This document shows, piece after piece, positions 55,012 through 57,090 of a stretch of DNA of 64,000 bases. The notes below the pieces were generated by a model. The model had not been told where the DNA came from, searched no databases, and saw only the letters and a program-made list of their open reading frames with translations. The first letter of the stretch is position 1; every line of letters starts with the position of its first letter. The translations under genes were made by a program, and so were the position numbers. Source of the DNA: a virus; the IMG/VR virus record IMGVR_UViG_3300030202_002001, positions 31,561-95,560 of that record; one strand, 5' to 3'.

Positions 55012-55038
55012 AAGGGGGGTTGCCACCCTCCTTTTTTT
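55012..55038 (+). terminator. Terminator after regA, loop carries a -35 box
   Basis: Stem AAGGGGGG / CCCTCCTT (one G-U pair) closes a six-base loop TTGCCA, followed by a run of T. The loop hexamer is also the -35 of the next promoter. Confidence 0.8.
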
Positions 55039-55048
55039 ATGCTATAAT
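55020..55048 (+). promoter_or_regulatory. Sigma70-type promoter, -35 in terminator loop, extended -10
   Basis: TTGCCA (55020-55025), exactly 17 bases, TATAAT (55043-55048) with TGC before it. The spacer is the terminator's 3' arm and T tract. It should start transcription near 55055, giving a ~93-base leader. Confidence 0.75.
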
Positions 55049-55054
55049 ATATCT

Positions 55055-55147
55055 GTGGTTAACCACTGCGGTAGTCCCCTTTAATAGGTTCAGGACTAGC
55101 GGCGACAGGAACCTATTGTTAACTCTACAGCCATACGGCTTGTTATC
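55055..55147 (+). promoter_or_regulatory. Structured 5' leader with H-type pseudoknot potential
   Basis: A perfect palindrome GTGGTTAACCAC (55055-55066) opens the leader. Then TAGTCC (55072-55077) can pair with GGACTA (55093-55098), while AATAGGTTC (55083-55091) pairs with GAACCTATT (55109-55117); the interleaved order is that of an H-type pseudoknot (6 bp and 9 bp). A third hairpin AGCC-ATAC-GGCT (55129-55140) sits 7 bases before the ATG, and no normal ribosome-binding site is exposed. A riboswitch, autoregulatory protein site or stable 5' RNA are all possible. Confidence 0.6.
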
Positions 55148-56161
55148 ATGACAATTATCTCAATTCCCCTTTCGGGGGTGCCTAAGGAATTGCGTCAGCA
55201 GATCGAAGAACTTCTTCCTGAACCTCAAGAGGTTCCTGGTTGGAAGTTTGCAGGATATAAATGGCGTAAACTCACACAGATCAATACCAAGGACAGTAAC
55301 GGAAACACAGATAACTCTGTTAGGATTGCTGGAACTGGTGACAACCAGACTCTAGAAGTCTCCCTTGCAAAAGGCATTGACACATCCGTCCTTACTCCAT
55401 CAATCTACGGTATTGATGATCTCCTTAACGGTTTTAACAGGTTGAAGAACCTGAAGCAACTAGGATATAAGGAGTGGATCTTCGCTCAATACGAAGAGAA
55501 CGATCTCACCAAAACCGAATTCCAAGACTCCTTAAGGGAGCGTCTTCAAGATGCCCGTGCATCAATGAATAAGGGATTTGGACAAAAGGTAATTACCGTT
55601 ACCGAGATCGAAGAACTTGGTCGTGAGCGTTTTGAACATCGTGAAGACAGGGAAAAGGACACCATCAAACGGTGGATCTATACCCTTGACTTGAACCTGA
55701 GTCCTCAACAGGTAGAAGGTATTGCAGCAAAAATCTGTAAAGACTTTGCTCGTCGTGGTATCATCGACTCCTATAGTCGTACAGAGGCTCAACTGTTTCT
55801 CGATGAACTTGGCATTGGAGCAGACCTTCTAAACACCTATGGTATTAATGGTGAGAAAGCCGATCCTACTCGTGCTCTTCGTACCATCTATCAGGTGATG
55901 AAGAACTATGTTGATAATGTCGATACAATGAACATTGCTCTCTTCGATTCTCAAGCATCTTCTCACGAAGAACTTGAAGCAAATCGTCAGAGGACTATTG
56001 CTCTTCTCGATGAAATGGATCAACTTGTCTTGAATTATGCTGCAGCGCGTGTAGCAAACCTCAAGGTTCCTCCTTACAATGTGTTTGGTGCTATCCCCCA
56101 GGCAACTGGTAAGGAGCACAAGGATGTTGTAATGCAAGAAAAGAAGTTGATTGAGGTGTAA
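55148..56161 (+). CDS. Hypothetical protein with ParB/Srx-like segment
   Basis: A 337-residue soluble protein. Residues ~75-115 resemble the ParB/sulfiredoxin nucleotide-binding motif region ('YGIDDLLNGFNRLKNLKQLG' with the G-x-N-R signature), followed by charged helices ('ASMNKGFGQKVITVTEIEEL', 'EHREDREKDTIKRWI') that could read DNA or RNA. The C-terminal third is helical ('ALLDEMDQLVLNYAAARVAN'). It forms a single-gene unit with its own promoter, structured leader and terminator, which implies tightly controlled expression. ParB relationship is tentative; otherwise unknown. Confidence 0.6.
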   Translation: MTIISIPLSGVPKELRQQIEELLPEPQEVPGWKFAGYKWRKLTQINTKDSNGNTDNSVRIAGTGDNQTLEVSLAKGIDTSVLTPSIYGIDDLLNGFNRLKNLKQLGYKEWIFAQYEENDLTKTEFQDSLRERLQDARASMNKGFGQKVITVTEIEELGRERFEHREDREKDTIKRWIYTLDLNLSPQQVEGIAAKICKDFARRGIIDSYSRTEAQLFLDELGIGADLLNTYGINGEKADPTRALRTIYQVMKNYVDNVDTMNIALFDSQASSHEELEANRQRTIALLDEMDQLVLNYAAARVANLKVPPYNVFGAIPQATGKEHKDVVMQEKKLIEV

Positions 56162-56170
56162 CAACCGAAT

Positions 56171-56205
56171 AAAAAAGGTGGGGGTTTCAACATCCCCCTT
56201 TTTTT
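56171..56205 (+). terminator. Rho-independent terminator
   Basis: GGGGG (56180-56184) / CCCCC (56194-56198) with loop TTTCAACAT, preceded by six A and followed by seven T, so it may work in both orientations. It closes the ParB-like unit. Confidence 0.88.
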
Positions 56206-56720: not shown

Positions 56721-56745
56721 GGGGGGTTGATCGCCCCCCTTTTTT
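56721..56745 (+). terminator. Terminator after hsp20, loop carries a -35 box
   Basis: GGGGGG / CCCCCC with loop TTGATCG and a run of six T. The loop contains TTGATC, the -35 of the next promoter. Confidence 0.9.
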
Positions 56746-56756
56746 CATGCTATAAT
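56727..56756 (+). promoter_or_regulatory. Sigma70-type promoter for the gp43 operon
   Basis: TTGATC (56727-56732), 18-base spacer, TATAAT (56751-56756) with extended TGC. Same layout as at 55020. It would drive the small paralogue pair, gp43 and probably uvsX-gp41. Confidence 0.7.
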
Positions 56757-56778
56757 ACCTAGAGGTAAGAAACTTACT

Positions 56779-57090
56779 ATGTCCGTTAGAGTAGCCATCA
56801 TTGGCACTGATTCTATCATTGCTGATATTAAAGAGTTGATTGATCCAGAAGACAAGGGTCGTCAATACATGTTTAACAATCCGTATCGCGTCATCATGCA
56901 ACCAACCATGTTGCTGACAGAAGATGCTGGAGAAACTGCAGAAAATACATCTCAAGTATCCCTTGCTACTTGGCAACCGCTTACGCAAGAGACTACATTC
57001 ATCGTAAATCCCAACTCTGTTCAAACTATTTTTGAACCAGTAGCTGATCTCAAGAACATGTACAAGGAGTTGATTGATGGCATTAGTTAA
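56779..57090 (+). CDS. Small Sm-like paralogue A
   Basis: A 103-residue protein: 'SVRVAIIGTDSIIADIKELI', 'NNPYRVIMQPTMLL', 'LATWQPLTQETTFIVNPNSV', 'QTIFEPVADLKNMYKELI'. Strand order and landmarks (NPY, W-P, FIV, TIFEP, MYKEL) align with the next gene and, more loosely, with the protein at 37706. The fold looks like a small beta-barrel with a C-terminal helix. It opens the DNA polymerase operon; RNA- or protein-binding regulation is a guess. Confidence 0.6.
   Translation: MSVRVAIIGTDSIIADIKELIDPEDKGRQYMFNNPYRVIMQPTMLLTEDAGETAENTSQVSLATWQPLTQETTFIVNPNSVQTIFEPVADLKNMYKELIDGIS

Follow-up and report, generated by a model that had tools for sequence, protein, structure and literature searches.

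A promoter-coupled hairpin-pseudoknot RNA family in T4-like cyanophages, with a possible role at the transcript 5' end

Introduction

Does a densely paired leader in front of an orphan gene of a T4-like cyanophage contain a genuine RNA structure, and does this structure serve the gene that follows it? A large part of the primary producers in the ocean is killed by cyanophages, whose control over the fate of their RNA is poorly understood. The locus lies in a stretch of 64,000 nucleotides (the window, to which all coordinates refer unless a locus is named; all features given are on the plus strand) within a 95,560-base IMG/VR virus record that carries the T4-like cyanophage genes RegA, Hsp20, gp43 DNA polymerase and clamp-loader subunit. 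A first-pass annotation had seen two interleaved stems between a promoter and the gene, and suggested that they could be a riboswitch or an autoregulatory leader of a ParB-like protein.

Results and Discussion

A hairpin and an H-type pseudoknot follow a predicted promoter

The promoter, the palindrome, the interleaved stems and a hairpin in front of the ATG were all found where the first-pass annotation had placed them. The promoter is of the sigma-70 type (55020-55048) and consists of the -35 box TTGCCA (55020-55025), a 17-nt spacer and the -10 box TATAAT (55043-55048) preceded by TG. Its -35 box is embedded in an upstream intrinsic-terminator-like hairpin (55012-55040; stem 55012-55033, then a T run). 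A similar terminator-promoter unit is present at 56721-56757; it is 86% alike to 55012-55048 over 36 bases, and each of the two units has its -35 box within the hairpin that would terminate the preceding gene.

Positions 55055-55117 form one copy of a structured RNA of ~65 bases, a hairpin followed by an H-type pseudoknot. The 5'-terminal hairpin P0 (GUGG-UUAA-CCAC, 55055-55066) was read from the sequence and is backed by an arm-swap test given below. Its first G is the predicted +1, its last C lies immediately 5' of UGCGG, and its DNA is a perfect palindrome, GTGGTTAACCAC. Every +1 position reported here is a prediction. The pseudoknot core (CUGCGGU...GAACCUAUU, 55066-55117, 52 nt) is supported by covariation and is matched by model R1 with 73.9 bits (E 1.2e-18), the window's own copy being included in R1. 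Stem S1 pairs TAGTCC (55072-55077) with GGACTA (55093-55098) and is extended beneath a G-G mismatch, where 55069-55070 pair with 55100-55101. Stem S2 pairs AATAGGTTC (55083-55091) with GAACCTATT (55109-55117), interleaved with S1 in H-type order. The conserved loop GCGGCGACAG (55099-55108) corresponds to the family consensus GCGGCGAYAG. Among 20,000 dinucleotide-shuffled versions of the 93-nt leader, 23 contained perfect stems of 6 and 9 bp in interleaved order, as did 4 of 2062 slices of 93 nt taken from the window; both tests were post hoc. Folded alone, the leader has an unremarkable minimum free energy (z = -0.87), as calculated by a program that cannot represent pseudoknots.

Both stems carry compensatory changes

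The decisive evidence for the stems comes from comparative covariation and not from the shuffle counts. In an alignment of 52 distinct sequences (A1), 99.8% of the cells were paired, compared to 86.1% in shuffles, and 113 cells were changed on both sides (27.1 in shuffles). The covariation score was 0.433 against 0.166 in shuffles, and reached at most 0.070 when one strand was slid by 1-3 columns. Double changes were found at nine pairs, three in S1 and six of the nine pairs of S2. Two isolates outside A1 changed S1 pairs that are invariant within it: C-G replaces U-A at pair 7-34 in SynMITS9220M01, and U-A replaces G-C at pair 5-36 in S-H68. The interleaved stems are thus real, and the compensatory mutations give firm support to their shape. 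Such changes in relatives were the test that the first-pass annotation had set in advance, and its view that the pairing is no accident holds: both stems covary, the shuffles seldom reproduce them, and the 52 sequences speak for a genuine conserved H-type pseudoknot at the predicted transcript start. Chance pairing, or inverted-repeat operators acting in the DNA without any role of the RNA, would suit the perfect palindrome at +1. We regard this as very improbable, since the compensatory changes in both stems include G-U intermediates, which are not predicted for DNA operators, and since P0 is mostly non-palindromic in other copies.

The element forms a family in cyanophages

When phages were searched with the leader by blastn, it turned up in P-SSM2, P-SSM5, S-SKS1, S-SM2, Bellamy and two single-cell marine viruses; further isolates with the element are ACG-2014f, S-SCSM2R, RB11-B, S-B05, S-B43, S-H68 and SynMITS9220M01. 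All phage matches in these isolate searches were Synechococcus or Prochlorococcus phages or marine single-cell viruses. A degenerate-pattern search of IMG/VR gave at least 120 stretches, and parsing of the matches listed yielded 112 distinct real copies, one false match (L086) being left out. Together, the element is present in more than 110 distinct IMG/VR contig sequences and about a dozen T4-like cyanophage isolates. S1 is complete (6/6 pairs) in 110 of the 112 copies, S2 has 8-12 bp in nearly all, and the loop GCGGCGAYAG or a close variant is found in the 112 copies. A second pattern that left the 3' half free showed that the conservation of this half does not stem from the search pattern. 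It was complete in 121 of 131 matches; the other ten comprised four near variants, one copy clipped by the contig end and five unrelated sequences.

The exact pattern was also searched in 84,980 bacterial and archaeal genomes, which gave 29 matches, none of them in Cyanobacteria. These chromosomal matches score 18-29 bits with R1, mostly only over the pattern stretch, compared to ~70-79 bits for phage copies. Given these low scores they look like chance, and a presence of the element in host chromosomes was rejected. Each of 22 whole records or long contigs carried one copy. The contig L082 has two copies within ~1.2 kb, one before tRNA-Arg and the other before tRNA-Pro.

No Rfam 15 family matches the element. 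The window gave no match above the gathering threshold, 13 element loci matched only tRNA, wcaG and manA, none of them over the element, and sensitive scans of three copies gave chance matches or none. A known riboswitch or other Rfam family was therefore rejected. The motifs wcaG (RF01761) and manA (RF01745) are likewise structured RNAs upstream of genes of T4-like cyanophages, and some lie within a few kb of the element, but they differ in sequence and structure and are detected separately by Rfam. The cyanophage motifs manA, wcaG and PhotoRC-II of a 2010 survey all differ from the element (PMC2864571). The annotated isolates that were checked list no feature over it, an annotation gap that the element fills. 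A search of open papers gave no description of the element, which appears to be previously uncatalogued. As judged from these sequence searches, the family is phage-restricted and new. The pseudoknot RNA family is well supported, whereas the mechanism proposed below is an interpretation.

The pseudoknot is not a property of the downstream ORF

The ORF downstream of the element encodes 337 aa (55148-56161). An intrinsic-terminator-like site lies directly after it (56180-56204; 56180-56197), which is compatible with the one-gene unit of the first-pass annotation. Shortly upstream of the ATG at 55148, an AGCC/GGCT hairpin (55129-55140) is located within a leader module of the ORF family (55118-55147; GUUAAC...AGCC-AUAC-GGCU), the hairpin ending 7 nt before the ATG. 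Besides the window's own sequence (L001, 100%), five relatives of the ORF were found (L002-L006, 67-72% identity). Their leaders are short and lack the pseudoknot: TATAAT is followed by ~6 nt, GUAAACAAYACAGCC-loop-GGCUCUUUAC and the ATG, so that their counterpart of the hairpin module stands directly at the predicted +1. Compared to these leaders, the window has an extra block of ~63 nt between promoter and hairpin. This block is the pseudoknot segment, which is thus a module that was gained by, or lost from, the leader of the ORF. The hairpin in front of the ATG is, by comparison of these leaders, a separate gene-specific feature common to the ORF homologues. Its AGCC/GGCU arms are invariant and its loops variable in the window ORF and the five homologues; a Shine-Dalgarno sequence is not evident.

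The pseudoknot as a property of the ORF leader was therefore rejected. With the element missing in L002-L006 and standing before tRNAs and unrelated genes elsewhere, neither a leader specific to this ORF nor autoregulation by its product, as first suggested, is sustained. The likeness of the protein to ParB/Srx did not find confirmation either. Pfam and PHROG searches gave no match, PDB profile matches were weak and irrelevant, so that no match to a ParB domain or fold was obtained, and the AlphaFold model (pLDDT 49) is too poor for a fold comparison. Among phage isolates there is one distant relative, in S-T4 (28%). ParB is thus an unconfirmed resemblance. At a syntenic locus (L133:1214-2245) an unrelated ORF of 344 aa contains a ParB-reminiscent segment, DGRTRILAA, without a Pfam ParB match. 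Gene order in L133 agrees with the window: regA comes first, then the element, an ORF differing from that of the window, hsp20 and gp43.

P0 links the pseudoknot to the promoter

In a search that required a stem ending directly before UGCGG, 104 of the 112 copies had a -10-like hexamer whose distance to the P0 arm downstream of it was 5-7 nt, mostly 5 or 6. In a pairing-free test, the five bases from the predicted +1 were compared with the five bases preceding UGCGG. Native arms pair at 4.44 of 5 positions, swapped arms at 3.54 (maximum 4.0 in 2000 trials), and the first pair is G-C in all 25 distinct arm pairs. The loop of P0 varies from 4 nt in the window to dozens of bases elsewhere, and in several copies with a swollen loop the +1 end is still paired beside the pseudoknot. 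In a subset of copies the -10 box and the 5' arm of P0 lie within the end of the upstream ORF. Hairpins at +1 as a general habit of promoters in these phages were rejected: other TATAAT promoters on the same contigs have no excess of them (4.89 vs 4.64 in shuffles). P0 therefore belongs to the element. These comparisons show the predicted promoter, P0 and the pseudoknot as one cassette ahead of tRNA arrays or various protein genes.

In L067, L115 and L126, upstream of purM, P0 carries an insert of ~70 nt that contains CCCCGAUNGUACAAUGGGG, and the closing stem at +1 is kept.

The element precedes tRNAs and unrelated protein genes

In 56 parsed copies the element ends 1-5 nt (mode 3) before a tRNA, namely tRNA-Arg(UCU) in 38 and tRNA-Pro(UGG) in 18. 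Most of the other copies stand in front of protein genes of various kinds, usually 14-36 nt from the ATG and often between regA or hsp20 and gp43; these include purM-like genes and an ORF homologous to 56779-57090 of the window. Of the 112 copies, one has a terminator within 60 nt of the 3' end of the element.

The preQ1 and SAM-II riboswitches contain H-type pseudoknots, and the leader of T4 gene 32 has one that serves gene-specific autoregulation. The element shares this topology, and in the case of gene 32 also the location in a leader of a T4-like phage. A metabolite riboswitch or a protein-binding autoregulatory leader for the downstream gene is nevertheless improbable. The downstream genes have no common pathway or metabolic theme: half of the copies precede tRNAs (tRNA-Arg, tRNA-Pro), and the rest many unrelated ORFs, so that, unlike gene 32, no same protein gene follows the element across phages. 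An adjacent terminator or a masked Shine-Dalgarno sequence that could act as expression platform is missing, as is a fixed arrangement of the ribosome site. ORF homologues without the element, the lack of an Rfam riboswitch match and the promoter-coupled P0, a further difference to gene 32, point in the same direction. The riboswitch of the first-pass annotation is thus opposed by what surrounds the element.

The varied RNA that follows, tRNA or assorted coding sequences, fits a general function at the transcript end and not a gene-specific switch. The family covaries strongly, is tied to the transcript start and is often attached to phage tRNA arrays. Three features stay constant, namely the predicted transcript start, a blunt G-C pair that closes P0 and the conserved pseudoknot next to it, and from these we infer a folded 5' end that acts in cis. 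The reading we put first, although we hold it to be somewhat less than probable, is a cis-acting module that would seal the 5' end and shield the transcript from 5'-dependent decay. In the sequences compared, a sigma-70-like promoter leads into P0, whose first G-C pair joins the predicted +1 to the base before the pseudoknot with its conserved loops CCUU and GCGGCGAYAG. P0 would thereby close the 5' end with no free nucleotides beside the compact pseudoknot, and both could, while infection proceeds, protect the RNA from 5'-end-dependent decay of the RppH/RNase E or RNase J type. RNase P would cut the module off tRNA precursors. A stabilising 5'-terminal stem-loop is known from the ompA mRNA. 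The element resembles it in having a hairpin at or beside the predicted +1; ompA-type stem-loops lack a conserved pseudoknot or conserved loop sequences. The podovirus P-SSP7 raises the level of RNase E in the host it infects, and antisense RNA has been proposed to shield the phage transcripts there (PMC9692554), which makes selection for protected phage transcripts plausible. Several points speak against a 5'-end shield. One copy per genome, as is usual, is odd for a general stabiliser, and the loop sequence is conserved beyond the need of simple 5' stabilisers. The transcription start is a predicted one, and a protecting leader that RNase P would cut off a tRNA seems of little use. The element is also kept where a nearby tRNA-Pro seems lost and a separate promoter serves the gene that follows.

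At loci of the MALTEKFK and (M)EFYSVEYW genes, the element is found both with and without an intervening tRNA-Pro. The element appears to survive the loss of tRNA-Pro, and where the MALTEKFK gene stands without the tRNA it has an additional TATAAT promoter of its own. Retention after tRNA loss suggests a function of the RNA itself. A small RNA that acts in trans, released by RNase P before tRNAs or by another RNase before coding sequences and binding a host or phage protein, would be in line with this retention beside genes that follow tRNA-Pro in related loci. The single copy in the 22 searched records, the own promoter, a 3' end only 1-5 nt away from the mature tRNA and the conserved single-stranded loops would also fit. 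We consider such a small RNA a serious alternative, though a rather unlikely one: it has no own terminator, and in most coding-sequence cases no second promoter intervenes before the ATG, which follows 14-36 nt on, an arrangement like that of an mRNA leader.

A second activity at the transcript start, antitermination, is known from phage HK022. Its polymerase-utilization RNA (putRNA) measures ~70 nt, starts no more than 3 nt from +1 in putL, adopts a compact fold with a triplex, works without a phage protein and is present in two copies per genome (PMC9378689). On predicted promoter geometry the element likewise lies at an early phage transcript start and has about this length, and it shares the sequence-conserved compact fold and the low copy number of one or two per genome. 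The likeness is one of description. The element would, by this analogy, bind host RNA polymerase as a nascent hairpin-pseudoknot and suppress pausing and termination across its operon. It heads long runs of tRNA or replication genes, and nearly all copies lack a terminator within 60 nt 3'. Against this, putRNA of lambdoid phages has two plain stem-loops and no reported pseudoknot, whereas the element is one hairpin plus an H-type pseudoknot; put needs no sealed +1 end; and among loci with 1.5 kb of downstream sequence only a minority has a terminator there. A put-like role is likewise a serious alternative, about as doubtful as that of the small RNA. More broadly, and with less conviction than for the 5'-end shield, we tentatively consider a self-acting phage RNA module, be it the first known antitermination RNA for a cyanobacterial polymerase or a pseudoknot cap blocking 5'-dependent decay, carried in a cassette that may have spread among cyanophages. 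Since the element is present in the cultured P-SSM2, S-SM2, Bellamy and S-SKS1, its function is directly testable.

Some loci differ in what follows the element. In L057 (~2020-2100) it is followed by an apparently interrupted tRNA-Arg with a zinc-finger-like ORF (MNSCLKCGSPTKTKFCSRSC), and in L074 (~2400-2800) by a similar cysteine-rich ORF (METRVCKSCNCEK) and then tRNA-Pro; these ORFs are possibly homing endonuclease insertions into tRNA genes. In L032 a tRNA-like sequence (CCTCTTTAGATCAGTGG...) without an ARAGORN call abuts the 3' side of the element, possibly an unusual or decayed tRNA. In front of the gene at 56779 of the window, the leader is short and lacks the pseudoknot; it contains a hairpin, GGUAAGAAACUUACU (56765-56782, z -3.7), soon after the predicted +1. 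Homologues of this gene in other phages do carry the pseudoknot element.
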